Below are positions 45,935 to 64,000 of a stretch of 64,000 nt of DNA, piece after piece; position 1 is the first letter of the stretch; every line of letters begins with the position of its first letter. A program made the position numbers and the translations under genes. The stretch spans positions 62,001-126,000 of the forward strand of contig JAJRZQ010000003.1 in NCBI GenBank assembly GCA_024275165.1, given 5' to 3'. The stretch comes from a bacterium. GTDB taxonomy: Bacteria > SAR324 > XYD2-FULL-50-16. The notes below the pieces were generated by a model. That model saw only the letters and a list, made by a program, of their open reading frames with translations, had not been told where the DNA came from and ran no database searches.

Positions 45935-46828
45935 TCAATAACGCACCGTAAACTCGGTTAGGGTACAAAGGCTGCGGTGCAGGGTGTTGTAAGGGTCGGT
46001 TTGCCCTGCCAAGGCCTTACATGCTTCGGTCTCCAAGACCGAGGTGCGGTGGGTGGTCAAGACAGAAAGGGTTGCGGGCTTGAGCCCTCGAGCTACGATT
46101 TCATCTCGAACCGCGGTCAACCAAGTCACCGCTTGAGCCGCCTCTGTCGTATTGCTGACCAGCACAGGCAGCGGAGCCGCATAGGTGGTATAGTCCGCCC
46201 CATCCAGGCGAAAACCCACAATCTCGACCGAGGCGGCCACCCGAGGGGTATCGGTCAAGCTATTGCCAAAACTGGCACAACCCGCGGGAGTGGGCCGCAC
46301 TAAGCAAACTCGCTTCATCTGAATGGCAATCGACCCGTTTGCCAATTCTTTGACAGCGTAGCTTTTTTCAGAAAGGCCAAAATAGATTCCCGCCCCCGCG
46401 TTGCCCCCCTTACCGACTTGGGAAACGCTCGCCGGTCGTTTTCTCAACCCCACGGCAAGAACCTGAAAGCGTTTTGAATTCACCGGAGGGAGTTCTATGG
46501 TAATCACGCTTTGGTTTAGGGGTAAATCATAGATGGTAAAATAGTTTTGGGAATTGACCATGGCCTGACCAAATATCTGATAGATATCATCACTTTGGAT
46601 TTGATCCAGGCTCCAAGGAATGGCCCCTTCGTTCAACACCAAAGGGCCGATCATCAAGGCTTTGACTTCCGGGTCGATATTCACCCCCGGGACCAAAGCC
46701 CCCCCCACTTGCATCTGTCTTTGCAACTGAGTGACATCCACCGTCAAGGTTTGCTTTGCCGGTTGGTCATTCAACCCCTTGCAAGCAACAAGGAGGAGCA
46801 GAGGAAAAATCCACCATAACTTGTTCAT
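45935..46828 (-). CDS. Lipoprotein, last gene of the Big2/FecR operon
   Basis: The 297-residue precursor has a signal peptide with lipobox LLVAC and lipidated Cys16. The mature part is mainly beta in character (VITIELPPVNSKRFQVLAVG; VEIVGFRLDGADYTTYA) and has four further cysteines near the C-terminus. I recognise no domain. Its start is one base beyond the stop of the outer-membrane barrel gene, so it may be an accessory lipoprotein of that protein. Confidence 0.7.
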   Translation of the reverse strand: MNKLWWIFPLLLLVACKGLNDQPAKQTLTVDVTQLQRQMQVGGALVPGVNIDPEVKALMIGPLVLNEGAIPWSLDQIQSDDIYQIFGQAMVNSQNYFTIYDLPLNQSVITIELPPVNSKRFQVLAVGLRKRPASVSQVGKGGNAGAGIYFGLSEKSYAVKELANGSIAIQMKRVCLVRPTPAGCASFGNSLTDTPRVAASVEIVGFRLDGADYTTYAAPLPVLVSNTTEAAQAVTWLTAVRDEIVARGLKPATLSVLTTHRTSVLETEACKALAGQTDPYNTLHRSLCTLTEFTVRY

Positions 46829-46829
46829 C

Positions 46830-48032
46830 TTAAAAATCCTTATCCAGGCTGATTCCCACCACCTGCCTTTGGTACACAGCCCAGTTTGATCTGTTTTCTA
46901 CATAGGTAACTTGACCCGTCAGTTTATACCCCTGCGGTAGATCATGGTATGACTTTAAGGTCAATTCCATCGGAGTTTCGATATGGCGCGGCGCCGAACC
47001 GGTACTTGGGTTGTCTTGATACTGCCGATATTCCAGCCCCACATTCAGCCCTAGGCTCCAGGAGGGAAGCATTTTTTCCCGCCAGGACCAATCCGCGCTG
47101 AGGTATTGATGATCCCCTCGAAATATGCCTTCTGTACGGGTTCCCAGGGCATATTGCTCCCGGTAGCTGTAAACGCGCCCGCGCTCCACCTCTTTTAAGT
47201 CCCACCTTAAACTGAGGTCACGCCCATCCGTCCGCAGAGGGGAGGCAAAATCAATCAAATCGACCTGGGCGATCAGCATCAAGATTCGCTTACTCCCATA
47301 ACGATTTAAGGAAAGATAACGCATCCCCGTGGCAAAACTATTGCGCATCAAAAAATCGTACCCCCCCCGGTTTTGCTTGCGAAACTCATAGGCAAACAAC
47401 CAAGCGGCCCCATCAGCGAGTTCAAAACCCTGCTCGGCCTGTAAAAAAACCTGCTCGCTCGCTAAATCAGGATGGTACTTGGAGTAATAATCCAATTGCA
47501 GGCCCAACGCTCCACCAAACCCCCACAATCCATCCCAATTCGCTTGGGCCGAGGCTTCTAGAAGTTGATCGGCCTGCCTGGAGTTGAGAGTGACCCCGTC
47601 GCCGAGTTGATCCAACCCAGGGTTGCTGTCATACAACAACGCCAAGTTGGTCGTGTAATCCTTGACCCGCAGACTGGGCCAGAAACTCTTTGTTTCCCCC
47701 AACAAAGGATAATAAGCCACATCGTAGCTTTGGACGCTCTGCGCCCCGGAGCGGTCCTTGGCGGTGATTAAAATCCGATTGTTGCCTTGAACCAAGATGA
47801 AAGCCCCCCCAATCACCACCCGTTTGCCTTTGTCAAAGGGCACGGGTTTCCCGTTCAAGGTTAGAGCGACAATCTCTTGATCCCCTTCAATGATAAACAG
47901 GGCGCGCAGCACCTTATCTTTTGCCGAGGAGAGCGGTCGCAGCCCCAAAGACTGAATTTTCGGCGCGGCGGCCCAGAGCGTTCCCGTACCCAAGTAGGCC
48001 CAAAGGGCGATGATGATCCAACCTCGTTTCAT
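46830..48032 (-). CDS. Predicted outer-membrane beta-barrel protein
   Basis: The start is ATG 48032; a TTG at 48044 would add four residues, and FecR ends two bases upstream. The 400-residue product has a signal peptide ending near TLWAAAP. A Ig-like segment (about 24-100; GNNRILITAKDRSGAQSV) precedes a region of alternating polar/hydrophobic strands rich in aromatic residues (LALLYDSNPGL, LGLQLDYYSKYH, YLSADWSW). It ends LDKDF, the terminal Phe typical of barrels recognised by BamA. Possible roles include export or anchoring of the Big2 proteins; none is shown. Confidence 0.65.
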   Translation of the reverse strand: MKRGWIIIALWAYLGTGTLWAAAPKIQSLGLRPLSSAKDKVLRALFIIEGDQEIVALTLNGKPVPFDKGKRVVIGGAFILVQGNNRILITAKDRSGAQSVQSYDVAYYPLLGETKSFWPSLRVKDYTTNLALLYDSNPGLDQLGDGVTLNSRQADQLLEASAQANWDGLWGFGGALGLQLDYYSKYHPDLASEQVFLQAEQGFELADGAAWLFAYEFRKQNRGGYDFLMRNSFATGMRYLSLNRYGSKRILMLIAQVDLIDFASPLRTDGRDLSLRWDLKEVERGRVYSYREQYALGTRTEGIFRGDHQYLSADWSWREKMLPSWSLGLNVGLEYRQYQDNPSTGSAPRHIETPMELTLKSYHDLPQGYKLTGQVTYVENRSNWAVYQRQVVGISLDKDF

Positions 48033-48033
48033 A

Positions 48034-48942
48034 TTATTTTTCAAAGGTAATCAAGACCTGGGTCGTGTCATTCAGCGGTCGTTGTTTCCAATCCTTTCGA
48101 TGAGGGTCAATGAAAAGAAGCTGGTCATTGAGCCACACCACATTTTTCAATTTTTCTTTTTCCTTCTTCTCAACCAAGGTGAAAAAAGCATGCTCCGCAA
48201 AGGGAGCTTTTTCCTTTTTCCGTTTGAGTTGATCTTCTTTCCAATCTTCCAAATCGATCAAGCGCAAAGCGGTCAGCCGTTCTAGGGGCCATAAGCCAAC
48301 TCCACGCGCCTCCCAAATACTGGGGGAGTCAAGGCTTTTTGGGATCTGTAGGGATTTTTCATCCGCCAAGCGCACCCGAGTCACCCCGGCCATCGCGGCA
48401 GCCTGCCCCGGTTGGAGAGACTGGCTCCCCCCTCGGGTAGCCCGTAACTGGCACTTTCCCTTTTTCCCTACAACCAGGGTACTGCCGGGGCCAACAGCCA
48501 AACGAATCGCGCTGCCGCCAAAGGCCCGCAAGACCCCAAAAGGGGTTTTCAGCTGGACCTCCTCGCCGCCGAGCTCCATCAAGGCTTGCCCATGCGCCAA
48601 AACCAAATGACCCTCTTGGCGCCCTTGCCAAGGCTGCGCCAATAAAATCGAGTTGCCCCCTAAAGTGAGCTTTCCCCCTTGGGGCAGCGTCAACTCGACT
48701 GCCGCTTTCGGCTGGAGCCAAAGCAAGTCACCGATAAAAAGTTTGGTCTTCGGCTTGGCGCGGATTAATTTTCCGGCACGAAAAAGAGAAAACCTCCCCC
48801 GCAGGGTCGTAAGGGGAAAAGAAAGCGCCACCTCGGCAGGGGGCTTTACCTGAGCGGTCTCCTCGGGCTGGGGCGACGAACCGGAACAAGCGACTAAAAC
48901 CCAGGTAAAAAGCGCTAAAAAGAAGAAGGATGGAAACTTCAT
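48034..48942 (-). CDS. FecR-domain lipoprotein
   Basis: The 302-residue protein has a signal peptide and lipobox VLVAC, with lipidated Cys19. FecR-like beta repeats are visible from about residue 45 to 190: RGRFSLFRAGKLIRAKPKTK, GDLLWLQPKAAVELTLPQGG, HGQALMELGGEEVQLKTPFG, with FGVLRAFGGSAIRLAVG. FecR domains occur in periplasmic sensors and in surface proteins with Big2 or LysM repeats. A Lys/Glu-rich linker (LKRKKEKAPFAE) leads to a short C-terminal strand region. Its ATG overlaps the upstream stop by 4 bp. Confidence 0.75.
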   Translation of the reverse strand: MKFPSFFFLALFTWVLVACSGSSPQPEETAQVKPPAEVALSFPLTTLRGRFSLFRAGKLIRAKPKTKLFIGDLLWLQPKAAVELTLPQGGKLTLGGNSILLAQPWQGRQEGHLVLAHGQALMELGGEEVQLKTPFGVLRAFGGSAIRLAVGPGSTLVVGKKGKCQLRATRGGSQSLQPGQAAAMAGVTRVRLADEKSLQIPKSLDSPSIWEARGVGLWPLERLTALRLIDLEDWKEDQLKRKKEKAPFAEHAFFTLVEKKEKEKLKNVVWLNDQLLFIDPHRKDWKQRPLNDTTQVLITFEK

Positions 48943-51900
48943 TTTACATAAACCGAAAAATAGTAACTCTTTGCGCCCAGCTTTGCCTCAATCGTGGCAG
49001 CGCCTTGCCCCATGGCGGTGATCAGCCCCTTGCTGCCCAACCGGTTATTTACGGCAACGATTGAGGGATTACTGGAACGCCATTGGGCGGTTTGGGTTGC
49101 CTCAAAACTGACTTCTGTACCGCTGGCAGAATAAAAGCCCTTCACCGCGAGCGAGGCTGTCTCGCCGGGAGAAAAAATCACCCCGGTTGTGCCTGAGGGT
49201 TCCACCTTGGTGATATCGCTGCTCAAGACGGTTACCGCCGCGGTTAAGGAAAGCGCCGCATTATCGGGGCCCGTCACGGTAATATTGGCGCTGCCTATGC
49301 CCAAAGCGCGCAATTGGCCTCGCTGACCCGGGCTGTTGTCCACCGCCACCACCGTGGGATTGCTGCTGGTCCAGTAGACCGCCTCACCGAGTTCATACTG
49401 TACCCCATTCGCCGTGGCATAGAGTTTTAAGAGGCCTTCGCCTTGTTGCGTCAAGGTCAGGCTCGTCTTGCTGAAGGCAACGCTGGAGGGATTCATCTCC
49501 GTCGCCACGGCAGTGGCTGTCTTCCCCTGAAAATAGGCGGTAATCGTCGCGCTGGCCTTGTTGACTAAGGGGTAGAGTTTTCCCTTTTCTCCCCTTACGC
49601 TGCTCACCTGAATCAGAGTGGGGGCACTGGAGTCCCAATGCGCCGCTTCGGTTACATCCACCGTGGCGTCATTGCTGTAGGTAGCCAGCAACTTTAACCG
49701 ATAATGAGTATTTGACAAAACCGCCAGCGTACTGCTTTCCATGGCCAGACTGACTAAAGTCGCCTGATTGGGCTTCAAGTAGCTCGCCGCCCGCTCGCTG
49801 CCCACCTGCGCATAGACCTTACCCCCCTGGTTTTGGGTTAAGGCCATCCAGCCTCGATAATCCCCCTCATTATAGATGGGGTTGAGGCTCGCGCCCTGCG
49901 CGTCCTCTTGCCAAAATACCGCTTGGGGGGTGACATCGAGGTTTTGTAAAAAAGAACCACTTTGATACACCGCTTCCACCCCCCACTTTTGATATTCCCC
50001 CAAGACATGCCCCGGCAAATTCGGATGAGGGTTGAGGTAGGACAAAGCCAAATCGCTCACCGTAAGACTTTGGGTGCTCTTTACGGTAGAAGGCGTACCC
50101 AAGGGATCATGGGTAAAAGAAGCGGATAGAGTCAGGCTGCCTGCCTGCATCCCCTTTAAAGCTCCCGCTTTTTTGCCTCCCGTTTGGATCGTCACCGCCG
50201 TGCCGCCTGGCTGCCAATCCACCTGATCGGTGACATCCAATAAAAGTTGGGACCCCGTGGTCGTATAGCGGGCAATCGCTTTTAAATTTTGCTCTGCCCC
50301 AATGGGGAAGGGGTTCGGCACCGGAGATTGCTCTAAACTGCTCAAGCTATAGGTGGCCAGCGTCAACTGCGTTGTCCCCACGACCCCGGCAAAGCTTGCC
50401 GTAACCGTCGCGCTTCCAGTGGCCGCGCCATGGATGCGCCCTTTGTGCCCGGAGCGGTTATCCACCTGGAACAATGCCGTATTCCCACTTGTCCATACCG
50501 CTTCTTCGGTGACCTCTTGCTTAAAGAGTTTTGTGCCGTCGCTCCAGGTGGCCAAGGCGCGCAGCCTTCCCTCATAGCCCTTGGGCCAAGTGGGGCTAGG
50601 GGGAAAGAGTTCCACCTTGGTCAAGCTGTAGCTGCTGGGCACAACGCTCCAGTCTCGGGTTGCCGTAACCCCGCCATAGGTCGCGCTGATCTGCGTTGTG
50701 CCGGCTTTGAGTTGAACCAAGCGCCCCCCCTGGCCCGGTAGATTGCTCACCTTGGCAATGGAAGAATCCGAGCTGCGCCAAGTGACCTGATCACTCAAAT
50801 CTTGGGTAAAGGCCCCCACCGGGCTGGCAAATCGCCCTATGGCCTTGAGTTTAAGATGGCTGCCGATTTGAGAAGAGGTCTCTAAAGGGGTGATCTGGAT
50901 TTCCTCCAAGCCCTCTAAGTGAGAGCGAAGCGCAAGCTGGGTTGACCCCTGACTGGTCAAATAATTCAGCCTCGCGGTAACGGTGACCGCGCGCGAGATA
51001 TTGCTGGGAATCAAGCTGGGGAACACCTCCCCCTTGCATTTTACATCATTGCAAACCGTAACGATGGAGCTGTCACTACTCTCCCAAGAGACCTGATCGG
51101 TCACCTCCATCAAGTTGACCTGCCCCCCCTGATTAAAAGCGGCAAAGGCTTTTAGTTTTAAGCCTATTCCAGCGGCAAGCAGGGGGTTTTCCGGGGCAAT
51201 GCTGATGCGGGTCAAGGTCTGGCTTTGGGGGGTGACCTTTGCGTAGGTCGCGGCTCCGTTATTGATGGAACTGCCCAATTTTGGAGTAATCAAGGAGGGG
51301 GTTCCCGATGAGTTTGCCAAGGCAACCCCTCGCCCTTTGCTCCCCTCTTGGTTGCTCACCGCCCAAAAACTGTTGTCCACCGCCCAGGTAACCTGGTCGG
51401 TTACCTCTTGAATCGTGCCATCACTTAAAAAAGCCAGGGCCGTAAATTGCAGTTCATCCCCAGTTTGCCGGTAGGACTCCAAAGGGTAGGCCTTCACCCC
51501 CCCCGAATAATGAGCGGTATTGAGGTTGACGGCGGTCAAGCTCAGCGTGCTGCTGCCCGTAACCCCGCCATAGGTGGCACTGATCACGCTGCTGCCGGCG
51601 GCCAGATTGGTTGTTTTGCCGGGGGTCACGCTCATCGCTTCAATCGTAGCGACTGCTGGGCTGGCGCTGCTCCAAGTCACAAAATTGGTGACATCCGACT
51701 TAATCCCATCGGCAAAAAAAGCATAGGCCTTGAACTCGGTATTTGGGGTAATGGGCTGGGCATAACTTGGATTGATGGGCTCAACCTGAATCGCCTGCAA
51801 CTCCGCTGGGGTAACCGTGACAGGCAAACTCCCCACCACGCCTTCTAAATTGGCGGAAATCAGGGTTTGCCCGTGACTTTTCGCGCTCACCAAGCCCTTA

Positions 51901-52184
51901 GCCGAGGTGTTGTTCACCATCGCGATATAGGGCGCGGTGCTGATCCAGGTCACGCTTTGGGTCACATCTTTTTTGCTGCCGTCCGAATAGGCCCCCTCAG
52001 CGGTAACCTGGACCTGCCCCGGGTTCCCTAAGGTGGTCTGCGCCGCGGCCAAGACGAGGCTGACCAGCACCACCCCCGTAGCATTGCCTTGAGGCGTCTT
52101 CGCCTTTTGCTTGCAGGCCGTTGCCCCCAGCAAAAGACCGAAGAAAACCCACAACAGAGAAATGTTTCGCAAAGCTTTCAACAT
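48939..52184 (-). CDS. Big2-repeat lipoprotein, 11 repeats
   Basis: The 1081 residues begin with a signal peptide and a probable lipobox GATAC (Cys24). The rest is about 11 tandem bacterial Ig-like (Big2) repeats of 80-100 residues. Each has the pattern (F/Y)SDG...(D/E)VT..VTW.SS...VA.V.N...G..........GSATI.A. The protein is a likely stalk or adhesin on the cell surface. Repeat 4 alone carries a cysteine pair (CNDVKCKG), which recurs at repeat 4 of the paralogue encoded at 52791-56006. There is no obvious C-terminal anchor or ligand domain. Confidence 0.85.
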   Translation of the reverse strand: MLKALRNISLLWVFFGLLLGATACKQKAKTPQGNATGVVLVSLVLAAAQTTLGNPGQVQVTAEGAYSDGSKKDVTQSVTWISTAPYIAMVNNTSAKGLVSAKSHGQTLISANLEGVVGSLPVTVTPAELQAIQVEPINPSYAQPITPNTEFKAYAFFADGIKSDVTNFVTWSSASPAVATIEAMSVTPGKTTNLAAGSSVISATYGGVTGSSTLSLTAVNLNTAHYSGGVKAYPLESYRQTGDELQFTALAFLSDGTIQEVTDQVTWAVDNSFWAVSNQEGSKGRGVALANSSGTPSLITPKLGSSINNGAATYAKVTPQSQTLTRISIAPENPLLAAGIGLKLKAFAAFNQGGQVNLMEVTDQVSWESSDSSIVTVCNDVKCKGEVFPSLIPSNISRAVTVTARLNYLTSQGSTQLALRSHLEGLEEIQITPLETSSQIGSHLKLKAIGRFASPVGAFTQDLSDQVTWRSSDSSIAKVSNLPGQGGRLVQLKAGTTQISATYGGVTATRDWSVVPSSYSLTKVELFPPSPTWPKGYEGRLRALATWSDGTKLFKQEVTEEAVWTSGNTALFQVDNRSGHKGRIHGAATGSATVTASFAGVVGTTQLTLATYSLSSLEQSPVPNPFPIGAEQNLKAIARYTTTGSQLLLDVTDQVDWQPGGTAVTIQTGGKKAGALKGMQAGSLTLSASFTHDPLGTPSTVKSTQSLTVSDLALSYLNPHPNLPGHVLGEYQKWGVEAVYQSGSFLQNLDVTPQAVFWQEDAQGASLNPIYNEGDYRGWMALTQNQGGKVYAQVGSERAASYLKPNQATLVSLAMESSTLAVLSNTHYRLKLLATYSNDATVDVTEAAHWDSSAPTLIQVSSVRGEKGKLYPLVNKASATITAYFQGKTATAVATEMNPSSVAFSKTSLTLTQQGEGLLKLYATANGVQYELGEAVYWTSSNPTVVAVDNSPGQRGQLRALGIGSANITVTGPDNAALSLTAAVTVLSSDITKVEPSGTTGVIFSPGETASLAVKGFYSASGTEVSFEATQTAQWRSSNPSIVAVNNRLGSKGLITAMGQGAATIEAKLGAKSYYFSVYVK

Positions 52185-52187
52185 ACC

Positions 52188-52790
52188 TTATTCCAAATGC
52201 ACCGCGCCTTGGCGGAGAATTTTCCAACCCTGCCCGCTCCAGCGGGCTAAACTACTCGGCGGCCCCCCTGGGGTTTGGCCTCCATCCAAATAAAAATCAA
52301 CTTCTTCACCCCAGTCACGCAAAATCGGGGCGATCTCCCTCTGGGGGGCTGCCCCGCTCCGGTTCGCGCTCGTCCCCACCAAGGGAACCCCGCACAAACG
52401 AATCAAGGCTTGCGCCTGCGGGTCCGCCGTCATGCGAAAGGCCAATTCCTTGCCCCCTTGATTCAACCCCGCGGCCAAACCAGGCTTTACCGGCAAAATC
52501 AAGGTCAAGGGCCCGGGCCAATAACTTCGCGCCGCGGCGGCTTCAGCCTCCTCTCGAAAAAAAGCCCAAGCACGCAGCTGCTCCCAACCATCCACCAAGA
52601 CCAGCAAGGGCTCTGTCTTTTGACGGGCTTTTAATTGATAAACCCGCTCTACCGCAATCTCGTCGTCTGCCCTGCAACCTAAGGCGTAGTAGGTTTCGGT
52701 GGGAAAAACCAAAAGCTTCCCCCCCTGAGCGCAAGCTTGTACCAAGCTTTGTTGTTGCTCCCCCTTTAAGGGAAGCGACCAACAAACCAC
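52188..52790 (-). CDS. Sua5/YrdC/YciO-family threonylcarbamoyl-AMP synthase-like protein
   Basis: This 200-residue single-domain protein has the YrdC fold: LLVFPTETYYALGCRADD, then AVERVYQLKARQKTEPLLVL, YWPGPLTLILP and GVPLVGTSANRSG. Such enzymes make threonylcarbamoyl-AMP for the universal t6A tRNA modification (TsaC/Sua5). The start is GTG 52790, whose first base follows the TAG of the Big2 gene upstream with no gap. No other t6A gene is near. That a housekeeping enzyme sits between two Big2 genes, three bases from each, is odd. Confidence 0.82.
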   Translation of the reverse strand: MVCWSLPLKGEQQQSLVQACAQGGKLLVFPTETYYALGCRADDEIAVERVYQLKARQKTEPLLVLVDGWEQLRAWAFFREEAEAAAARSYWPGPLTLILPVKPGLAAGLNQGGKELAFRMTADPQAQALIRLCGVPLVGTSANRSGAAPQREIAPILRDWGEEVDFYLDGGQTPGGPPSSLARWSGQGWKILRQGAVHLE

Positions 52791-55700
52791 CTACCAAACC
52801 ACGACCAGCGTGGAAACGCTTTGGTTCCCCCATTGAGCGGTAATGGTCGCTCTTCCCTTTGCCCGTCCGGAAACCAAACCCTTTTCCCCAGGGCGATTGC
52901 TCACCGAAGCAACCTCTGGGGCCGAACTACTCCAAATAACCGCCTCATTGACCTTGAGGCTGCTGATCATCCCCCCGGCGCTGGTAAAAGTCCCTGTCGC
53001 GTTTAATTGCAACCGGCGCAACTCGGCCAGACTGGCGTTTTGAGGGTTGATGCTCAAACCAGATAAATTACGACTTTCTAAAGTAAGGCTGACTGAGCCC
53101 TGCACCCCGCCCCAGTCTGCCCGCACGGGCATCGTTCCGGCGGCGAGGGGGTACAAAAGGCCCTGCTCCCCCTCTTGATTGGAGACGACCCCCACTGTCG
53201 GTGCCGTGGTGGACCAGGTTACCACCTCGGTGAGGTCCTGCACGGTTCCATCGCTGTAGACCCCCACAGCGTGCAAGGGGTGAGACAGCGCCAAGGGAAA
53301 GGTTCCGGCCGCGGGGGTGATTTCAATGCTGCTTAAAGTCGGCGCCTTAATAGCCACCACGCCACCGCTAGCCGATAAAACAGCCCCATGCCGCGCCTGA
53401 ACCTGCAACGAGCTGCTCACCGCCAAAGCCTCTACCACCCCCTTTTGCCCTTTACCGTGCAAGACTTTGGCAGCGGTGGAGGAGGCCGTCCATAAAACCG
53501 AATCGGTGATGTCGCGAATGGTTCCATCGGAAAAGGTTCCCAGGGCTTTGAAGTGGCCCCGACTCCCAACCGTAAGGTTGAAGTTTGTCGGGGTTACTTG
53601 AATCGAAGAGAGGGTTGCCCCATCGGCGTTCAAAGTCGTTGTTCCCTGCGCCGTTCCCAGGCTCGCCGTAATCGAGGCGGCGCTAGCCGCTTTGCGATAT
53701 ACCGCCAAGCCCGCCTCGGCCATGCCGTTTTCCACCGGCACATCGGTGCGTTCTAAAGCGGGGTTTAAGTTCGACCAAGCCACGCTACTCGTTAGATCCA
53801 CCCCCCACAGCAAACCGCCGGAGGTCTTGAATTCACCTAAAGCATGCAGGGGGAGCTGAAACCCCGCGGAAAGCCGATCATACTGAGGGGTCAGATGAAT
53901 CTTGCTGAGGCTGCTCGCATCCACGGTAACGGCCAGGCTCGCTGTTTTGGTCACCGAGGCGTTATCCTTCCAAGAAGCCGTAAGGGTCGCGCTTCCCGCC
54001 CCTAGGGTTTGGGCTACCCCTTGGCTCCCCGGCTGGTTGCTGATCCGAATCACCGCGGGATTGCTGCTGAACCAGGTTGCCTCTTGGGTCAAGTCTTCGT
54101 GGGAATAGGTAGTTCCATTGATAAACTCTCCTTGAGCCTGAAACCGCAAGGTGACCCCAACCGGCAGGGTGGAAACCAAAGGGGTAAGGAATAAATTATT
54201 GTAGGCGTAGCTTGCCGCTGACTTGACCGTTACCGTGGCCGTCCCCGTTACCGTGCCGGAAGTCGCCGTCATGGTCGAAGTTCCCGCCAAGACCCCCGTC
54301 ACCAAGCCTTCACGCCCTACAGCGTTGCTCACCCTAGCGGTCGCAGCGGAACTGCTCGACCAATTCACCGCTGGCGTCATATCGACCGCGTAACTATCGC
54401 TGCCATTGCTGTAGATCCCTATAGCTTTTAGAGGCATGAGCCCCTTTTCACTCATTAGGCTGGAGGGAGTATCCACCGTTAAACTGGTCAGGCTATAGCC
54501 GCTGCTTGAGACCGTGAAATTTGATTTTGCCGAGACCCCTTGACTGATGGCCTGGATGGAAACCGCTCCCGCGCCCAGATAAGTGAGTTTTCCTTTGTGC
54601 CCCCCTTGGTTGCTTACATGGAGAATCGTCTTATCGCTGCTGCTCCACTCCACCCGTTCGGTGACCTCAAGCTTATAGCGAGCCGTACCGTCCAAATAGG
54701 TTCCATAGGCGCGCAATTGTTGCACGGAGCCCGTGGTAAGCTTGCGATCATTCGGAGTCACACTCAAGTCAACCAATTGAGCGGTCGTAGGTAAAACCGT
54801 CAGGGTTAGACTGATGGTCTTGAGCGTATTGGCCCCCGCTGCCGTGATGACCACCGTTCCCGGGGCCACCGCGGTAACCGCCCCCTGGCAGGGGGCCGCG
54901 TTGCACACCGTCGCGATGGTGGAGTCCGAGCTGGTCCAGCTTAAAGAAGAGGTGATCTCTTGATGGGTATAGCTCGAAACCCCATCAAAATAAATCCCCA
55001 CTCCCTTTAAGTAAAAAGTTGAGCCCACCTGCAAAGCCGAAAGAGCCGGTTCAATGGCAATGGAGCTTAAGCTTTGAGTCCCGACCTTCACCGTTGCAGA
55101 GCCACTCGTCGCCCCTAAGGCAGCGCTTAAAACCGAGGTTCCGGCAGCCAAGCCCGTTACCTCGCCACGATACCCCCGAAAGTTGCTGACGGTTGCAGTG
55201 GCTGGGGTCGCGCTGCTCCATAGGGAGCTCTCGGTTAAATCTTGTTTTTTCCCGCTCGCTAAAATCCCCATGGCCTTAAACCGTACCGCGCTTTGAGCCG
55301 CGACATCGCTAAAGCTAGGGGTGAGCCCGAGACTGGAGAGGGTATCGCTGTTAAAAGTGAGGCTGCTGGTGCCGGAAATCTGATTGAAGCTTGCGGTAAT
55401 CTCGGTCGTTCCCGCGCTCACCGAAGTCGCCCGACCGGCGTCTTCATAAGCGTTGCCGATCAAGGCAACGCTTACAGCCGAACTGCTCCAGGTGACATAG
55501 GGGGTTAAATCCACGGTGAGCCCATCCGAATAAACCCCCGTGGCGCTAAATTGAACCTCCGGGGTCAAGGATAAGGCTAAACTGGGCTGGTAAGGAGAGA
55601 CTTCAATCGAGCTGAGCGCGGCATCGGTGATCTCTAAGGTCGTGGTTCCCGTGACGCCTTGGTAGGTGGAGGAAATGGTTACCGTGCCGGGCTGTAGAGG

Positions 55701-56006
55701 GAATAAAGTTCCCCTGAGGTGGTCGCCCCCCGCTACATTGACGATCTTTGCAAGCTGGGTATCCGAAACGCTCCAGCTTGCCTGCTCGGTTACATTCGCG
55801 TCCGCGCTCACCGTATAAACCGCGGTTGCCGTATATTGCACCTGAATGCCTTTGGGCACAATGGAATAAGAAGCGGAGATGGAGATGCTATCTAGTTTGT
55901 CTTCCTTTTTGGTCAAGGAGGACTTACACGAAAAGACCAAAGCCAGGGCCAGGATCAAGCCCAAAAGGCGAAAGAGCTTTCCGGTTCGGTTAGCGCGCTT
56001 TTTCAT
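52791..56006 (-). CDS. Big2-repeat lipoprotein, 11 repeats (paralogue)
   Basis: The 1071 residues start with a signal peptide and lipobox LVFSC (Cys27). About 11 Big2 repeats follow, with the same register as the 48939-52184 protein. The fourth repeat holds the same unique cysteine pair (CNAAPCQG), where the other reads CNDVKCKG. Typical repeat text is GVYSDGTVQDLTEVVTW and SVSNRPGEKGLVSG. The two most likely arose by whole-gene duplication. Presumed surface location; ligand unknown. Confidence 0.85.
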   Translation of the reverse strand: MKKRANRTGKLFRLLGLILALALVFSCKSSLTKKEDKLDSISISASYSIVPKGIQVQYTATAVYTVSADANVTEQASWSVSDTQLAKIVNVAGGDHLRGTLFPLQPGTVTISSTYQGVTGTTTLEITDAALSSIEVSPYQPSLALSLTPEVQFSATGVYSDGLTVDLTPYVTWSSSAVSVALIGNAYEDAGRATSVSAGTTEITASFNQISGTSSLTFNSDTLSSLGLTPSFSDVAAQSAVRFKAMGILASGKKQDLTESSLWSSATPATATVSNFRGYRGEVTGLAAGTSVLSAALGATSGSATVKVGTQSLSSIAIEPALSALQVGSTFYLKGVGIYFDGVSSYTHQEITSSLSWTSSDSTIATVCNAAPCQGAVTAVAPGTVVITAAGANTLKTISLTLTVLPTTAQLVDLSVTPNDRKLTTGSVQQLRAYGTYLDGTARYKLEVTERVEWSSSDKTILHVSNQGGHKGKLTYLGAGAVSIQAISQGVSAKSNFTVSSSGYSLTSLTVDTPSSLMSEKGLMPLKAIGIYSNGSDSYAVDMTPAVNWSSSSAATARVSNAVGREGLVTGVLAGTSTMTATSGTVTGTATVTVKSAASYAYNNLFLTPLVSTLPVGVTLRFQAQGEFINGTTYSHEDLTQEATWFSSNPAVIRISNQPGSQGVAQTLGAGSATLTASWKDNASVTKTASLAVTVDASSLSKIHLTPQYDRLSAGFQLPLHALGEFKTSGGLLWGVDLTSSVAWSNLNPALERTDVPVENGMAEAGLAVYRKAASAASITASLGTAQGTTTLNADGATLSSIQVTPTNFNLTVGSRGHFKALGTFSDGTIRDITDSVLWTASSTAAKVLHGKGQKGVVEALAVSSSLQVQARHGAVLSASGGVVAIKAPTLSSIEITPAAGTFPLALSHPLHAVGVYSDGTVQDLTEVVTWSTTAPTVGVVSNQEGEQGLLYPLAAGTMPVRADWGGVQGSVSLTLESRNLSGLSINPQNASLAELRRLQLNATGTFTSAGGMISSLKVNEAVIWSSSAPEVASVSNRPGEKGLVSGRAKGRATITAQWGNQSVSTLVVVW

Positions 56007-56019
56007 GTCGTCCTCTTTT

Positions 56020-57093
56020 TCACTCGGTAATCGTGTATACTTTGGTTTGTACTTGGCCCTTGTAACGGGCGGTAAGGGTAACTGTTCCGGCCTTTAAGGC
56101 CGTTAAACGACCTGAATGAGCCCAGTCATTGGCCACCTGCGCAAGCTGGTCGTCAGAACTGGTCCAGGTTGCCTGTTCGGTCACATCTAAGCTGGTATTG
56201 TCGCTTAAGGCAATATGTAAACTAAGCTGCGCCTCGGCCCCAATGGGAACCCGCGTTTCCAAGGGCAAAATCGTCATCGAAGAGAGACTGGCCGAAGTCA
56301 GGGTATAGCTCGCAAAGGCATAGGTTGTCGGCAAATAGGCCGCTACCGTCTTCACTCCCGCGGTCGTTAGGTACAGGCTCCCCGCAGAGGCGACCTCATA
56401 CCCCGAAACCGCCCCGGTAGAGTACCAGGTCGCCGCGTCGGTCACATCCAGCACGGTGTTGTCGCTTAAAGTAGCCAAGGCCTTAAAGCGCACCACATGA
56501 CCCACCGGTAGGGAGGTCGGGGGAGAAAGAGTCATACTGGAAACCGTAGCGCTGCTCACGCTCAAGGTGGCACTTCCCGCAACCTGCCCTAAAGTCGCCG
56601 TCACCGTAACGGTGCCCGCGCTCAACCCGTAGACCTTCCCCCGCTCTTTCGCGTTCAAGTGAACCTGGGCCACCGCGGTATTGGAGCTGCTCCACAAGAC
56701 GCTCGCGGTTAAATCCTGGGTGCTGCCATCGGAAAACACTCCAATGGCTTTCAACTGCTTGGATAGGTTCGGCAAGGTCACGGGGTTTAAGGGTTGAATC
56801 TCAATGCGGCTCAAGGCCCCTGAAATTTCTCTCACCGCCATGCGCCCGCTGCGGTTGGTGGTTCCCGCCAAAATTTGCCCTTCCCCATTGCCTTTGCGGA
56901 TAAAACTTCCGGCCTTTTCAAAGGGGCGCGGTTGCAGCGCCGCGGTTAAGCTGGTCCACTGGGCCAAATGCCCCACTGCTTGTTTATACCCATTCGAATC
57001 GAGTAAAAAAGCGGAAAAGGAGACCAAGGAATCAAGCATGACTTTGGGCTCTTTCGGGCTGACCTCAAGTCGTTGGTGCGTCCCTGTGTTCAC
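56020..57093 (-). pseudogene. C-terminal half of a Big2-repeat protein, split from its lipoprotein half by an in-frame TAA
   Basis: These 357 residues contain about four Big2 repeats (GVFSDGSTQDLTASVLWSSS; LSDNTSLDVTEQATWTSS) but no signal peptide. GTG 57093 could start translation, but the frame is continuous with the upstream open frame (57100-58254) apart from one TAA at 57102-57100. The joined sequence, SGST-stop-ATVNTGTHQRLEVSP, keeps the Big2 register across the stop, with the next repeat beginning at LEVSP. A CAA-to-TAA change would explain it. It may be a broken gene, a sequencing or assembly error, or readthrough. Alone it would stay in the cytoplasm. Confidence 0.7.
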
Positions 57094-57099
57094 CGTTGC

Positions 57100-58254
57100 T
57101 TAGGTACTCCCCGAGAGGGTGACCGGAACTGTCAAGGCTTGGGTAAAACTGGCGCTGAGGGTACTGCTTCCCGTTGCTTTGGCTTGAGTCAAACTGGGGT
57201 TCATGCTGCCCATGCTCACTACCGTCGGCGCGGAACTCGTCCAAGTCGATTGCTCGGTGACCTCTTTAGCGTAATAGACGCTCCCCACCGAGACCACTGC
57301 CCAGGCCCTTAAATTTTCTTGACTCCCCACCACCCATTGGGGCGCCTGGGGCCAAACCTCCACTTCTTGCAGCGTCCCCGCCACTGCCGTGCCGGTCAAA
57401 CTGGCGCTCAAGCCGCCGATGGAGGCGCTCAAACTGATGGCCCCCGCAGCTGCGGGAGTAAAATAAGCGTTCCCTTTTGGGGTATAACTGAGCGCGCCGC
57501 CGGTCGCGCTCCAATCCACCTGGTCGGATAAATCCCGCACCTGATTGCCCGCATAGACCCCTATGGCCCGCACTCGTTCTGGAATCTTTTCAATCCAAAG
57601 CGTTGAAACAGGCTCTAGGGTTAAGGACAACAGCCCCGCTTGGGTCACCGTAGAAGTCAAGGTCGCCCGCAAACCGAAGAGATCGGCCGTAATCACAGCC
57701 GAGCCTTGAGCCAAAGGGCTTAAGCGGCCTTTGTTCCCCTCGCTGTCGGAAACACTGGCCACGGTTGTATCACTGCTCGACCAACTCGCTAAATTCGAGA
57801 CATCTTGGGTGGCGTCGTTACTCAATACCGCGACCGCGGTCAAGGTGGCGTCTTGATCAATATAATAGCTGCTGCGGTCTGTGCTCACGCTCAGGCCGGT
57901 CACGCCGTAAACCGTTAGGGGAAGGCTTCTGGTCACTCCCTGATAACTGGCGTAAGCCACGACTTTGCCCGGCGCTTTAGCCTGCAACAAGCCGTTTTTT
58001 ACCAAAGAAAACTCCGCTACGGTTTTATCGCTGGTCCACCAGGTGGCCTCGGTGGTCAAGGCCGTTTCGCTCGCGTCTTTACCCACCGCCTTGGCACTGA
58101 ATTGCGTTTGTTCTTGCACCAGCATACTGGTTGAGGCGGGGCTCACCTCCAAATAGGCGATTGGCTGATCATCCGCGGTAACGGCCGCTTTGCGGCAGCC
58201 TAAAAATAAGCCCAAACAAAGCAGTAAAAATATAAAGTCTTTGACTAATTTCAT
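57100..58254 (-). pseudogene. N-terminal half of the split Big2-repeat lipoprotein
   Basis: The 384 residues begin with a signal peptide and a textbook lipobox FLGC (Cys20). Four Big2 repeats follow (VLSNDATQDVSNLASWSSSD; VYAGNQVRDLSDQVDWSA) and the frame ends ...VTLSGST then TAA. Without the stop the product would be about 744 residues with eight repeats, closer to its two 11-repeat neighbours. The shorter form could still be a functional exported lipoprotein, so the call of pseudogene is provisional. Confidence 0.65.
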
Positions 58255-58272
58255 GGGTTTAACATAGCCAGT

Positions 58273-61200
58273 TTACCACCGCCATTGCAAGCCGATGTTC
58301 CAGCCTAATTGGTAAAAATCCGGAGTAAGGGATAACTGCGGCATCCGAGGGTTATGAAAAGCCAATATATCTTCTCCACATAGGTCTTGATAAATCCACC
58401 AAGCTTCCACCCCCAAAGCCAGCAGGGTGAAAGCATCATAAATTTTTGCCTTTGCCAGGTGCCGCTTTTCGCTTTCTTGAGCGGCGGTAAGGGCCGCTGC
58501 CTGGCCGGCAAATTGGGTCGGGCTGCTTAAGGTGGCATATCCGGCGACCAGTTGCTCTGCTTCGCTTTGTTTTTGTGCTGCCAATTTTTGTTCCTGTTGG
58601 CCCTGGTACAACCCCAAAGCGAGGAGAGACCCCGTACCCACATGTTTCCAAAAACCTTGGGGTAGGTCGTCCCCCCAGGTCGCCTCATCGGGGCCGGGGC
58701 CTAAAAAGAGGGTGTAGCCCTCCCACAATAACCCGGCGACCAGCAAGGCGTCATAGCTGTTGTTTCGTTGGACGCTGCCTTCCAGTCGGCTCGCGTTGCT
58801 TGCCAATTGAGATCGCACGCTCTGCACCTCTGCGGGGGAGCCGGCGGTCGCGTAGGCGGCAAAAAGCTGCTCCCGCTCGCTTTGAGCGGCCTGATAGTTT
58901 TTTTGCTCCAATAAAGAAAGGTAAAGCCCGCTAAAGGCCAAAAGCAAGGGGGGCACATGCCGGGTTAGGGTCCTTTCTGTTTCTTTGCTCACCCAGGCGT
59001 TCGGGTCTTCGATCCCTCCGGCCAGTCGAGCCTCTTCCTCGGTTAGAATCCGCAACAAATAACTGGATTGGGCAAAGTTGTTTTTATCGTTATAGTCTTT
59101 GCCCTCCCCAAGTTGCACGCTCGCTTCTAGGCGGTAATCCCCCGGGGGTAAATCCGTTGGAATTGTAAACTCTTCACTCCAGTCCTCATCCCCTTTAGAT
59201 CGCAGAGAGTCAAATCTCCGCTCCAACCCAATCGAGGTTCGCGCGTCCCCTGCTGCCACCAGTTGATAAGAAACACTAAAGGCCCCGGCTTGCTCTATCC
59301 CATAATTTTTCAACACAAAATCTTGCTCAAAACTCTTGCCGGGCCACAAGGTCGTTCGCCGGGGGCGACCCTCTAAATCAATGGCCAAATCCAAGGGAAC
59401 CGGAGCAATATAAATCACCAAGCCGCTACTGCCTTGGTTGTTTTCTCGGCTCGCCTCTTCACCTTGGGTGGTTACTTCCGCGATGACCTGGTAACGCCCC
59501 GCGGCAAGATCGGGCAAACGCAAGCTTTTGTTGATTTCCCTTGCCGCTTGTTTGGGCAATAAGGCGGGGAATTCTTCTTCTTTAAAAATGGGGATTTTTT
59601 CCCCCTTTTCACTTTCCAAAAAATAGCGGATTCGATAGGGGCTGCTCTTGGCCAAGCCTTGGTTTAAGGGGCGAATCGCAAGCTCGATATCCATTCCGGG
59701 GTGTACCTGAGGCGGAGCTTTGGCCGCTACCTGGATGTATAAATCAGGCAAGGGCTCGCTGACTTCCAAGTCCATCCCGCTGATTAATTTATTGTCTTCC
59801 AGGCTCCACTCCCCTCGGTTTTCCACCTGCTCAACATGGACGATCAACCTATACTTAGCCGGGATCAAACCCACGGGCAGGGTCAACTTCTTTTGAAACT
59901 TAAAGGGCTCGGCCTCCGCCGCTAAGGATAAAAACCGATCTTTTTCCAAGATGTCAAAATTCATTCCCGCCTCGTTTTGCACAATATAGCTGACCACAAA
60001 ATCGCTGGAGGGCTTTTTCCCACTGTTGTTGACAATGAAGTCGAGGTAAATTTCTTGGCCCGGCTGCAACCCCTTAAAGCGAAAGGGGGTGGCAAAGGCA
60101 ATGCCCAAATCGGGCAACCCCTCTCTACGATGCTTTTCAATAGCCGCAAACAGAGCCTGTAAGGCGGCCTGATTCGTCGCCACCTGTTGCGCCTCCCCTT
60201 CATCTAAATCCGCCTCGTCTTTCACCTTTTCATAAGCTTCCAAGGCAGAGCCTATTGACTTTAAGTCTCGGGTAAGCGACAGTTCTTGCGTCAAGATATC
60301 CAGGTTTTTTAAGAGGTCCGGTTTTGGGGTCTCCAAGGTGTTTTGCGCCAAGAAATGCTCGACCGCTTGGGTATGTTGCTGGAGACCTCGACGGGCCAAC
60401 CCTAAATAATACTCCACCAAGGGGTAGCCGGGCATGAGGTTTTTTAAGGACTGAAAAGCGCTCAAGGCATCGCCGTACTTTTGCTTGTTCAGTAAAGAGA
60501 GCCCCAGGCGTTTAAACTCCTCTGCCAAAAAAGCCTCATCAGACTGCCCCGTGAGCTGGCTCGCCCCTGCCTTAATCTGAGACTTTAACTCTTGATTGAG
60601 GGCTAAGCGCGCTGAAAGACTGATCCGCCCTAAGCTTGCGGTCAACACATTCAACGCCGCCGCATCGTTCCCCTGTTCTGCGTACACCTTGGATAAGGAC
60701 AAGGAAAGGTTTAGGTTTTCCGGTTCTTCTTCCAATTGGGCGTTCAAGGCGTTGGTCACCTCCCCGGCTTGCCCCTGGGCGATATACATGGCAATGGCCT
60801 GATCTCGCTGGGCCAAATCCATCGCCTTTAACTCTTTTGCCTGTGCCAGGCCTGCTTTCGCCCCTAATTTGGGATCGGCGATATTTAAGCTTAAGGCCCC
60901 CAGCTTTGGGATTTGTACAAAATCCGCTACCTTCAGCCCTAAAAGCAACTCCTCTATCGGGGCCTCGGCGAGTTTAGGCAGGTCGGGCACCCCGCTGAAA
61001 ACCGCTCCAGAACGCCCCTCTCCATACTGATTCAAGGCATAAAGGCGGTAATAATAGGTCACCTTATTGCTCAGCCCCTGGTGGACGAATCCGCTTTTGA
61101 CCTGGGGAACGCGCTCCCATTCCCGCGCTTTTTGCTCCTTATCACGGCTCCAGCGCAGGTTATACCCCGTTGCCCCCTTGACCTCTTTCCAAGTCAGAGT

Positions 61201-62169
61201 TAAGCGCCCATCACCGGGTTTGACCTTGGCCTTGGGGCCCCTTGGGGGTCTGGGGTTCGGGGTAACCGCGACCTCATCGCTCAAGTCGCCCAAGCCAGCG
61301 GCCCCTACAGCGGCAATGGCATAATAATAGGGTTTGCCGTTATTTAACCCTTGATGGATAAAGTTGTTTTCTATGTTTTGAATCCGCTTTGCCCGTTCCG
61401 CGCTCACCCCCGGCTGATTGGACCAAAACAGGGTATAACTCCGCGCCCCTTGAATTCGGTTGTAGGAAAGCAATACTTTTTTATTCCCCCCCACGGCGAT
61501 TAAAATGGGCGCCGGAAGTTTGGTAAAAATATGCCCCCCCGTAATCTTCACCAATTTGCCGTTAACCCAAACCCCTACGCCTTGAATATAATCATTTCTC
61601 TGCTTTTTTAAAAGATCGCTCAACTCCTGCTTGCTGCCAAAGTGAATTTCTTTATCCTTTCCGGCCGACCGATCCGAAAGCACTACCTTTTGTTTATCCT
61701 TGAAAAAATCCATGGTTAAATTCTGGTAGTTGCTGCTTTTATCGGCAAAAATATTGTAATCCTTCCCGTACACCTTTAAAATAAGCTGGCGAAAGGGGGC
61801 CTTGAGCAAAAAGGCGGCGGGCAAGGAAAAGGAAAAGTCCAATTCCGACTTCGGCGGAACCACCGGCAGCTTCACCCCCCGCCACCTGCGTTCAACCCCT
61901 CCCTTCAGCAAAAGAATCGCTTGCAGCTCCGCCGGTTTGCTCCCTTGGTTTTTAATGGTGAAGAAAAATTCGAAATCTTGGTTTTCCGCGTTCCAGCTAA
62001 CCCGAATGGGGCTGGTGCTGACAGGAATCAATTTTGCCGCGGGGAGGCGGCCAGGGAGTAAAAGAGCCACTCCCAACATCCATAAGGTCGCGTGCCGAAT
62101 AAACCGCCCCCTGCCCTGAAATAAAAGCTTTTTTATTTTTAGCCAAATCGAGTTCGCTCCCTCAGGCAT
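58273..62169 (-). CDS. Large FN3 / TPR / CARDB envelope protein
   Basis: The 1298 residues have a long basic N-region and hydrophobic segment (residues 26-45), probably a signal peptide. An N-terminal Ig-like beta region follows (about 46-165). Two fibronectin type III domains (about 222-305 and 312-396) share YYYAIAAVGAAGLGDLS-like strands. A TPR-like helical part spans about 450-610. Three CARDB-type adhesion domains follow (about 686-803, 806-920 and 925-1040; e.g. LPDLGIAFATPFRFKGLQPG and LKNYGIEQAGAFSVSYQL). The C-terminal 230 residues have helices and end GWNIGLQWRW, as in outer-membrane strands. It is the largest gene of the operon and has no named family. Confidence 0.75.
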   Translation of the reverse strand: MPEGANSIWLKIKKLLFQGRGRFIRHATLWMLGVALLLPGRLPAAKLIPVSTSPIRVSWNAENQDFEFFFTIKNQGSKPAELQAILLLKGGVERRWRGVKLPVVPPKSELDFSFSLPAAFLLKAPFRQLILKVYGKDYNIFADKSSNYQNLTMDFFKDKQKVVLSDRSAGKDKEIHFGSKQELSDLLKKQRNDYIQGVGVWVNGKLVKITGGHIFTKLPAPILIAVGGNKKVLLSYNRIQGARSYTLFWSNQPGVSAERAKRIQNIENNFIHQGLNNGKPYYYAIAAVGAAGLGDLSDEVAVTPNPRPPRGPKAKVKPGDGRLTLTWKEVKGATGYNLRWSRDKEQKAREWERVPQVKSGFVHQGLSNKVTYYYRLYALNQYGEGRSGAVFSGVPDLPKLAEAPIEELLLGLKVADFVQIPKLGALSLNIADPKLGAKAGLAQAKELKAMDLAQRDQAIAMYIAQGQAGEVTNALNAQLEEEPENLNLSLSLSKVYAEQGNDAAALNVLTASLGRISLSARLALNQELKSQIKAGASQLTGQSDEAFLAEEFKRLGLSLLNKQKYGDALSAFQSLKNLMPGYPLVEYYLGLARRGLQQHTQAVEHFLAQNTLETPKPDLLKNLDILTQELSLTRDLKSIGSALEAYEKVKDEADLDEGEAQQVATNQAALQALFAAIEKHRREGLPDLGIAFATPFRFKGLQPGQEIYLDFIVNNSGKKPSSDFVVSYIVQNEAGMNFDILEKDRFLSLAAEAEPFKFQKKLTLPVGLIPAKYRLIVHVEQVENRGEWSLEDNKLISGMDLEVSEPLPDLYIQVAAKAPPQVHPGMDIELAIRPLNQGLAKSSPYRIRYFLESEKGEKIPIFKEEEFPALLPKQAAREINKSLRLPDLAAGRYQVIAEVTTQGEEASRENNQGSSGLVIYIAPVPLDLAIDLEGRPRRTTLWPGKSFEQDFVLKNYGIEQAGAFSVSYQLVAAGDARTSIGLERRFDSLRSKGDEDWSEEFTIPTDLPPGDYRLEASVQLGEGKDYNDKNNFAQSSYLLRILTEEEARLAGGIEDPNAWVSKETERTLTRHVPPLLLAFSGLYLSLLEQKNYQAAQSEREQLFAAYATAGSPAEVQSVRSQLASNASRLEGSVQRNNSYDALLVAGLLWEGYTLFLGPGPDEATWGDDLPQGFWKHVGTGSLLALGLYQGQQEQKLAAQKQSEAEQLVAGYATLSSPTQFAGQAAALTAAQESEKRHLAKAKIYDAFTLLALGVEAWWIYQDLCGEDILAFHNPRMPQLSLTPDFYQLGWNIGLQWRW

Positions 62170-62178
62170 CGTCGTTGA

Positions 62179-63153
62179 CTACCCCTTTTCAGTTAAACGG
62201 TATACTCCATCCCAATCCGCGGCAGGAGGTTTTTCTAAGAAAGTTTTGCATCTGACGACATAGGTCAAGCTGGGGCCATCCTTGGGATCAAGCTTTAAGG
62301 CCTGTTCAAAATCCGCCAAAGCCCCGGCAAAATCAAATTTTTTGTATTTTTCCAAGCCCTTTAGATATTGCGCCACTAGGTCGGCCTTAGGCCCTGGAGT
62401 CTGCCCCTTTTTGGCGATGAGGTCGTAGACGGTAATGGGCTCGTCTTTACCGACCACGGTGATTACATCCAACTCTCTGACATCAATCTGATCCTTGGCC
62501 ATGTCATAGGTCGCCTGGCTGATCATGCTGTAGTTTTTATAAAATTTATTCGCCCCTTCCAAACGGGCGGCAAGGTTTACCGCGTCCCCCATCATGGTAT
62601 AATCCATGCGGCTTTGACTCCCCATGTTGCCGACCACCATGGGGCCGGAGTTGATCCCCATCCGCACATGCAACAAGGGGCGGCCCTCGTCTAAGAGTTT
62701 TTTACGCATTTCGATCAGCCGGGTCTGCATCTCAACGGTAGCATGGCAACAACGCACCGCGTGATCGGGTTGGTCTAGGGGAGCCCCCCAAAAAGCGATG
62801 ATCGCGTCTCCTTCAAACTTATCGACCGTGCCGTCGTAAGCGGAAATGATATTACACATCTCGGTGAGATACTCGTTGAGCAGGGCGACCAACTCTTCGG
62901 GGGTGAGGCTCTCTGAAATGGTTGAAAAACCGGCAATATCGCTAAAATAAGCGGTCATTACCCTGCGTTCTCCCCCCAAACTTAGTTTGGTGGGGTCGTT
63001 GACCAAAGCCTCAATCACCGCGGGGCTTAAATATTGCCCAAAGGCGTTGGTAATGAAACTTTTTTGCTGTCTTTCTTGAATAAAAAGGTAGACATTGATC
63101 AAGATAAACCCGAGCAGGCCCGCAACTAAAGTATAGGCCATGGAAAATGCCAC
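62179..63153 (-). CDS. Class III adenylate/guanylate cyclase, cyclase half (frameshifted from CHASE2 half)
   Basis: The 324-residue open frame (GTG 63153) starts with a membrane helix (AYTLVAGLLGFILINVYLF) and has a full class III cyclase domain: AYFSDIAGFSTISESLTPEE (metal Asp), DKFEGDAIIAFWGAP and MGINSGPMVVGNMGSQSRMD, with DYTMMGDAVNLAARLEGANK. The C-terminal part is a TPR-like helical unit ending WDGVYRL, as in other CHASE2 cyclases. In this family the sensor and cyclase are one chain; here the frame changes at 63180-63190 (see the CHASE2 feature). The product makes cAMP or cGMP; the base cannot be told for sure. It starts the series of envelope genes. Confidence 0.85.
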   Translation of the reverse strand: MAFSMAYTLVAGLLGFILINVYLFIQERQQKSFITNAFGQYLSPAVIEALVNDPTKLSLGGERRVMTAYFSDIAGFSTISESLTPEELVALLNEYLTEMCNIISAYDGTVDKFEGDAIIAFWGAPLDQPDHAVRCCHATVEMQTRLIEMRKKLLDEGRPLLHVRMGINSGPMVVGNMGSQSRMDYTMMGDAVNLAARLEGANKFYKNYSMISQATYDMAKDQIDVRELDVITVVGKDEPITVYDLIAKKGQTPGPKADLVAQYLKGLEKYKKFDFAGALADFEQALKLDPKDGPSLTYVVRCKTFLEKPPAADWDGVYRLTEKG

Positions 63154-64000
63154 ATTAAGATAGACATAGGCCGCCCCGCAAAAAAGATATAAACCGCCAA
63201 CAAAAGGCCGGCTGCGAGATACCTTAATTTAGGCTCACTGATAAAGTGCAGGCTGATCAAAAGGATCATAAAAGACAGGGCTAAGGCGACCTCGCCTCCG
63301 GTGGAGACCGGGGCCAGGGGGGCGTTTTTCAAAATCGTCGCCACTTCATCGGCCATAATTTCAACCCCATACACCTCTCCGATGATGGTATCGAAAATAT
63401 CGTGGCTCACCTCGGAGGTATCTCCCAACAAGATGATCTTGCCCTCGATTCTAGATTTGAGTTCCGCGATTTCATCTTCATCCTCTCGATCCAGCTCTAA
63501 AATCGTCATCCCATCCACCCCAACCTCGGGAACACGGTGCAAAAAGGGATAACCCACGGGCAAAAGGGGATAATCGTTGATGAAGTCGTTGAAGCCATCT
63601 AGCCGTATCTGGTGGGGGCCGATGGTGAGCAGTCCCTTTTTGATTTTTGGCTCCACCCCCAAAGCCATGGCCACGGACAACACCGAAGCGGGCCACTCGT
63701 TATATTTTTCCGCCGCCTCGGGGTAGACCCGCAAGCGATTGAGCATATTGCCCGATTTGGTGTGATTGGAGTAGGCCGTAACCGTCGCTTTTTTAATAAC
63801 CTCGGTGGGATAGTTGATCTTGCTGATCTTTCCCTCCCGTAAAGCCAACATGGAGACTAAAATATTGTTCCCCGCTCGGGTAAGGCTTTTGGCGATGATC
63901 GGATCTTCATTATAGGAACTGGGAAAGTCCATCAGCATATCCACCATAACCACCTTAGCGCCTAATATCCTAAGGTTTTCTACGATAATCCCCACATCGG
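63126..64000 (-). CDS. CHASE2 sensor domain and membrane helices, partial (frameshifted from cyclase half)
   Basis: The open frame enters from the window edge (5' end missing) and ends at 63126. It has CHASE2-type sequence: ENLRILGAKVVMVDMLMDFP near the start, GKIILLGDTSEVSHDIFDT and YGVEIMADEVATILKNAP, then two membrane helices (VALALSFMILLISLHFIS; YLAAGLLLAVYIFFAG). Past FFAG the frame reads RPMSILMW and stops, while a -1 shift gives GAAYVYLNVAFSMAY, which continues into the cyclase. So CHASE2 and cyclase were one gene. A base change in the T6 or G4 run (63180-63192) or a sequencing error would account for it. Confidence 0.8.
   Translation of the reverse strand, partial: DVGIIVENLRILGAKVVMVDMLMDFPSSYNEDPIIAKSLTRAGNNILVSMLALREGKISKINYPTEVIKKATVTAYSNHTKSGNMLNRLRVYPEAAEKYNEWPASVLSVAMALGVEPKIKKGLLTIGPHQIRLDGFNDFINDYPLLPVGYPFLHRVPEVGVDGMTILELDREDEDEIAELKSRIEGKIILLGDTSEVSHDIFDTIIGEVYGVEIMADEVATILKNAPLAPVSTGGEVALALSFMILLISLHFISEPKLRYLAAGLLLAVYIFFAGRPMSILMWHFPWPIL

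Follow-up and report, generated by a model that had tools for sequence, protein, structure and literature searches.

Comparison with related genomes showed that the 18-kb gene run at the edge of the window was composite, as judged from gene order. Namely, a set of surface genes was located within an older operon of a CHASE2 cyclase gene and tsaC. The window was the whole 64-kb stretch of DNA analysed here (positions 62001-126000 of contig C17, in an assembly of 2.69 Mb and 47 contigs). The explanation that we favored, and considered somewhat probable, was that this unit combined the cyclase-tsaC operon with an outer-membrane-anchored module of Ig-like fibres served by a FecR/barrel core for assembly or display. 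The FecR, Ig-barrel and Cys lipoprotein genes were recognized as a conserved envelope module of three genes, in a lineage known here from assemblies alone. If the module displays cargo on the surface, it would provide a testable new route of surface-protein assembly in uncultured bacteria. The analysis also illustrated that tight gene spacing can mislead, since the cyclase and tsaC genes stemmed from another operon.

Organization of the gene run

Ten ORFs, all on the minus strand, extended from the window edge down to position 45935 and covered ~18 kb (Table 1). The intergenic spacings were 9, 18, 6, 13, 0, 3, -4, 1 and 1 nt, with the ATG of the barrel gene taken at 48032. The start of the first gene was at contig position 126361, which was 361 nt outside the window. 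Thus, the sequence-only reading was correct in describing nine or ten genes on one strand with junctions from a 4-bp overlap to 18 bp. Promoters and terminators separating the genes, which it had named as a finding that would reduce the run to unrelated neighbours, were not in excess inside the run. In a scan covering sigma-70-type promoters and simple intrinsic terminators only, we observed 9 promoter-like sites (8.8 expected from shuffled sequence) and 26 terminator-like sites (28.3 expected). On the basis of spacing only, the cyclase, tsaC and surface genes may be co-expressed. Searches of the 64-kb window for tRNA genes and Rfam families produced no match. No long direct or inverted repeats marking insertion ends were found, and the repeats detected were mainly Big2 units.

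The run itself was real, and the gene list given for it needed correction: tsaC had been omitted, the cyclase gene was split, and the first two Big2 ORFs belonged to one gene. The missed tsaC was a tRNA-modification gene located between the second and the third Big2 lipoprotein genes, and its TsaC/Sua5 membership was indicated by a TIGR00057 score above the curated cut-off. A second TsaC-like gene of this genome was on contig C21. Convergent to the operon, window positions 43688-45862 encoded a 724-aa TPR-rich protein that was syntenic with its G001 counterpart (25% identity).

Table 1. Features of the minus-strand gene run (window positions)
Feature	Position	Strand	Basis
CHASE2 part of class III cyclase gene	63126..63998, on to contig 126361	-	PF05226 1.9e-20, full 411-aa ORF
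Catalytic part of same cyclase gene and a TPR	62179..63153	-	PF00211 3.5e-23
Giant exported protein, 1298 aa	58273..62169	-	Pfam; orthologues in G007 and G009
Big2 lipoprotein, first part, 4 repeats, ends at in-frame TAA	57100..58254	-	Lipobox, repeats
Same Big2 gene, second part, 4 repeats	56020..57093	-	Same frame as 57100-58254 ORF; single 667-aa ORF in G007
Big2 lipoprotein, 11 repeats	52791..56006	-	Lipobox, repeats
tsaC, L-threonylcarbamoyladenylate synthase	52188..52790	-	TIGR00057 133.7 bits (cut-off 123.2); PF01300 3.1e-45
Big2 lipoprotein, 10 repeats by HMM	48939..52184	-	Lipobox, repeats
FecR-domain lipoprotein	48034..48942	-	Weak FecR match, family-supported
Ig-like domain and predicted outer-membrane barrel ending in Phe	46830..48032	-	14-member family alignment, alternation pattern
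Lipoprotein with conserved cysteines, third triad gene	45935..46828	-	14 aligned family members

The giant protein and the Big2 lipoproteins

The 1298-residue protein had been described as carrying FN3, TPR-like and CARDB domains, and Pfam recovered all of them, the TPR weakly. Its layout was an Ig-like N-terminal region, two fn3 domains, the weak TPR, CARDB repeats and C-terminal hairpin segments. A search of the genome contigs with the giant sequence alone had no match, and a contig search using the giant alignment matched two records. The orthologues in G007 and G009 were 34-35% identical to it across ~1000 aa. This protein would be an exported periplasmic scaffold that bridges the periplasm.

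The first two Big2 ORFs were in one frame and were parted by a TAA alone. The second of them was without a signal peptide and, taken alone, did not combine a lipobox with repeats; the other Big2 ORFs all had a lipobox and tandem PF02368 repeats. The earlier statement that the Big2 repeats were on lipoproteins held for the three ORFs with lipoboxes and not for this one taken alone. In G007, the counterpart of the split gene was one 667-aa ORF with 7 repeats, compared to 4+4 here. There were three Big2 lipoprotein genes in each genome, with 8, 11 and 10 repeats here and 7, 11 and 7 in G007. The repeat HMM counted 4+4+11+10 = 29 repeats in the cluster, in agreement with the previous figure of up to 30, and all Big_2 matches of the genome were inside this cluster. 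The lipoboxes and tandem Ig repeats suggest that the Big2 lipoproteins could form Ig fibres anchored in the outer membrane.

The FecR, Ig-barrel and Cys lipoprotein triad

Lipoboxes and signal peptides across the cluster proteins were assigned by sequence. The FecR lipoprotein of the sequence-only reading was recovered with an N-terminal signal peptide or lipobox, and its FecR match was weak (18.5 bits vs the Pfam cut-off of 24) and was carried by the family, where 12 of 13 members had the domain (best 1.3e-12). The next gene had been read as a barrel ending in Phe, and the C-terminal Phe was present in all 14 members of the barrel family. Pfam contained no barrel family matching the window protein, and the barrel prediction rested on the Phe and the alternation pattern. 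The window Cys lipoprotein had no Pfam family either, and two triad members are without a convincing Pfam or NCBIfam family. Profile searches against solved structures revealed relatives of neither the Cys lipoprotein nor the barrel, for which the best match was short (E 0.12). AlphaFold models of the Cys lipoprotein (single sequence, pLDDT 34) and of the barrel (two sequences, pLDDT 35) were uninformative.

Two known systems were considered for these genes and rejected. For FecI/FecR/FecA signalling, the FecR protein had an N-terminal signal peptide or lipobox, not a cytoplasmic anti-sigma N-terminus; Pfam revealed no sigma factor among the proteins of the cluster and no plug or TonB-dependent receptor in any of the 14 barrel-family members. 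The arrangement of a predicted barrel gene beside a lipoprotein gene was similar to that of Slam (SlipAM). However, PF04575 was matched by only one of the 14 barrel proteins, at an insignificant E of 0.01, and the N-terminal domain looked Ig-like rather than TPR.

Conservation of the surface genes in related genomes

In G007 (JABGPJ01), the giant, three Big2 lipoproteins, FecR, barrel and lipoprotein genes were found in the same order on one contig. In G009 (JAHJRI01), the same surface genes were on contigs C131 and C464, both of which ended inside the first Big2 gene. Its gene order was consistent with that of G007 rather than fully shown to be the same. Same-order co-occurrence in G007 and consistent content in G009 thus supported the assignment of these genes to an envelope module, with the Big2-containing order known from one sister genus only. 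Neither of the two surface runs had the cyclase or tsaC. Therefore, the gene set of the earlier reading was found to co-occur in relatives for the surface genes, and the cyclase was outside the conserved set.

Triads without Big2 or giant genes were present in G001, G002, G003, G004, G005, G006, G013 and G017, and G009 had such a triad as its second copy. The Cys lipoprotein family was detected in 17 of the 52 genomes of the phylum, and its gene was directly behind the barrel match in 18 of 19 places. Roughly one in three genomes of this small phylum had the triad, in most cases with no Big2 genes. Among 383 genomes searched, full-length barrel relatives were found within the phylum only, and the matches outside it were short stretches, mostly of the Ig-like part. 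The pairing of FecR with the barrel was constant while the secreted partners beside it varied, which suggested a display or assembly core. In this envelope core, the FecR protein and the Ig-barrel would serve to dock, assemble or display lipoproteins after their export.

Other family members differed in their surroundings. The triad barrel gene of G031 was split in two ORFs (L072:8101-9430), and represented another frame-broken copy of the family. The second Cys-lipoprotein gene of G001 (L078:9559-17377) adjoined a gene for a 2213-aa predicted lipoprotein and had no barrel.

The split cyclase gene and the older operon

The sensor-type nucleotide cyclase proposed previously was confirmed with respect to its domains and not as a single intact gene. 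CHASE2, membrane helices and a class III catalytic domain were all present, and the class III motifs were found in the catalytic ORF, but a frame break divided them into two ORFs that were in different frames and overlapped at 63126-63153. The Lys/Asp motifs suggest adenylate specificity. Eight orthologues were single ORFs of 687-716 aa that aligned across the break of the window copy, and the catalytic part was 66-74% identical to such intact orthologues. The stretch of residues lost between the two ORFs was, on our reading of the sequence, still encoded in the other frame. Thus, a one-base difference beside short homopolymers was the likely cause of the break, which may be either biological or an assembly error.

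In G001, G002 and G004, tsaC came 0-3 nt after the orthologous cyclase gene, and in G001, G003, G004, G006 and G009 the gene before this cyclase encoded an MtxA homologue. An mtxA gene followed by a CHASE2 cyclase gene is known in magnetotactic bacteria (PMC4439547, PMC5088516), and the same pairing was the usual neighborhood of the orthologues of the window cyclase. In contrast, the window genome had its mtxA on a separate contig (L099), and the cyclase adjoined the surface genes. In both G007 and G009, ~3 kb and two genes separated the giant gene from an MtxA-like paralogue on its upstream side (L043:4579-5523, L044:8074-9018).

The older arrangement was kept in G001. Its locus comprised RNase R-like, Tgt, dCTP deaminase, PanB and DAHP synthase genes (named from sequence by eye) and mtxA, and continued with the cyclase, tsaC, TPR and beta-lactamase-like genes in convergent orientation and a pair of opp-type genes. 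In the window genome, contig C28 carried the mtxA side of such a locus, and C17 carried the side with the cyclase, tsaC, TPR and opp genes, where the operon was still flanked by the TPR gene, the beta-lactamase-like gene and the opp genes. Here, the giant and two Big2 genes were located between the cyclase and tsaC, and the third Big2, FecR, barrel and lipoprotein genes were between tsaC and the TPR gene. Thus, the synteny with G001 showed the composite origin of the unit, not the order of events.

Alternative explanations

In the explanation that we favored, the module present on both sides of tsaC would form a composite transcription unit with the cyclase and tsaC. We also considered that a chance rearrangement put the surface genes in this operon and that the two gene sets have only a promoter in common, which was a possible but less probable reading. 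The synteny showing a composite origin and the adjacency to the cyclase in this genome only would agree with it, but it does not explain why the surface genes keep a conserved order among themselves. The sole difference from the favored reading was that it denies a selected benefit of the joining. It was rather doubtful that the locus is decaying, with two inactivating mutations, namely the break in the frame of the cyclase gene and the TAA of the first Big2 gene. Although both breaks had intact counterparts in relatives, the other reading frames were intact (two of them with >1000 codons), the sequence on either side of each break was still conserved, and one break was beside homopolymers, so that an assembly error was possible.

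It was unlikely that the CHASE2 cyclase belongs to a dedicated signalling system, sensing the FecR/barrel/Big2 apparatus and answering with cAMP. The earlier idea that the cyclase senses assembly received no support for the conserved module, because the orthologues paired with mtxA and tsaC without surface genes, and the module was without a cyclase in G007 and G009. The closest relatives do not support a dedicated cyclase, and the window copy was frame-broken. On the other hand, the surface genes were tightly spaced behind the cyclase, and both G015 and G023 had a distinct CHASE2 cyclase gene, behind which an Ig-barrel relative, a FecR protein and a large lipoprotein were encoded on the same strand. 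Different CHASE2 cyclases were also encoded near the barrel in G013, G027 and G042, with the two matches at most ~2 kb apart, and in two further places they were ~8 kb apart on opposite strands. By chance, 0.4 such pairs were expected. This was a rough and only indicative figure, for which we assumed genomes of 4 Mb that each have two CHASE2 genes and genes placed at random, and ignored shared ancestry. Given this looser CHASE2-FecR-barrel association in the phylum, a cyclase link may still exist. A broader version, in which FecR and the Ig-barrel are an undescribed outer-membrane display system of the phylum with interchangeable cargo (the Cys lipoprotein, Big2 fibres and PPC-domain lipoproteins), whose state a CHASE2 adenylate cyclase reads in several members, was quite improbable.

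Comparison with known systems and other loci

A literature search for a system combining Big2, FecR and a cyclase found none among the papers covered. In Campylobacterota, clusters of a CHASE2 adenylate cyclase, a phosphodiesterase, a FecR-domain outer-membrane protein and a TPR protein have been published (PMC9239204). These CHASE2-FecR-TPR clusters, which favor the signalling reading, resembled the window in that envelope proteins with FecR domains and TPRs were encoded next to a CHASE2 cyclase. However, the passages on them described no Big2 lipoproteins, giant protein or Ig-barrel/lipoprotein triad, and the cyclase adjacency in the window was derived. The Burkholderia BiofilmReg operon encodes a LysM-FecR protein with a CHASE2 histidine kinase (PMC5192318). 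Like the window, it combines a CHASE2 sensor and an envelope protein of the FecR type, but its sensor is a kinase rather than a cyclase, and barrel, Big2 and lipoprotein triad were undescribed there.

The family also had a distinct type of operon (L053:3134-11047, L052:2881-10574 and L055:6128-13905), in which the encoded proteins were an exported one with Big_5 or PEGA, a FecR protein and a long Big2 lipoprotein, with LamG in one case. Finally, very long TPR-CHAT proteins were encoded beside a giant homologue in G005 and beside the cyclase orthologue in G009 (L045:1980-8417, L085:2395-7929), and a similar protein was also present in G007.
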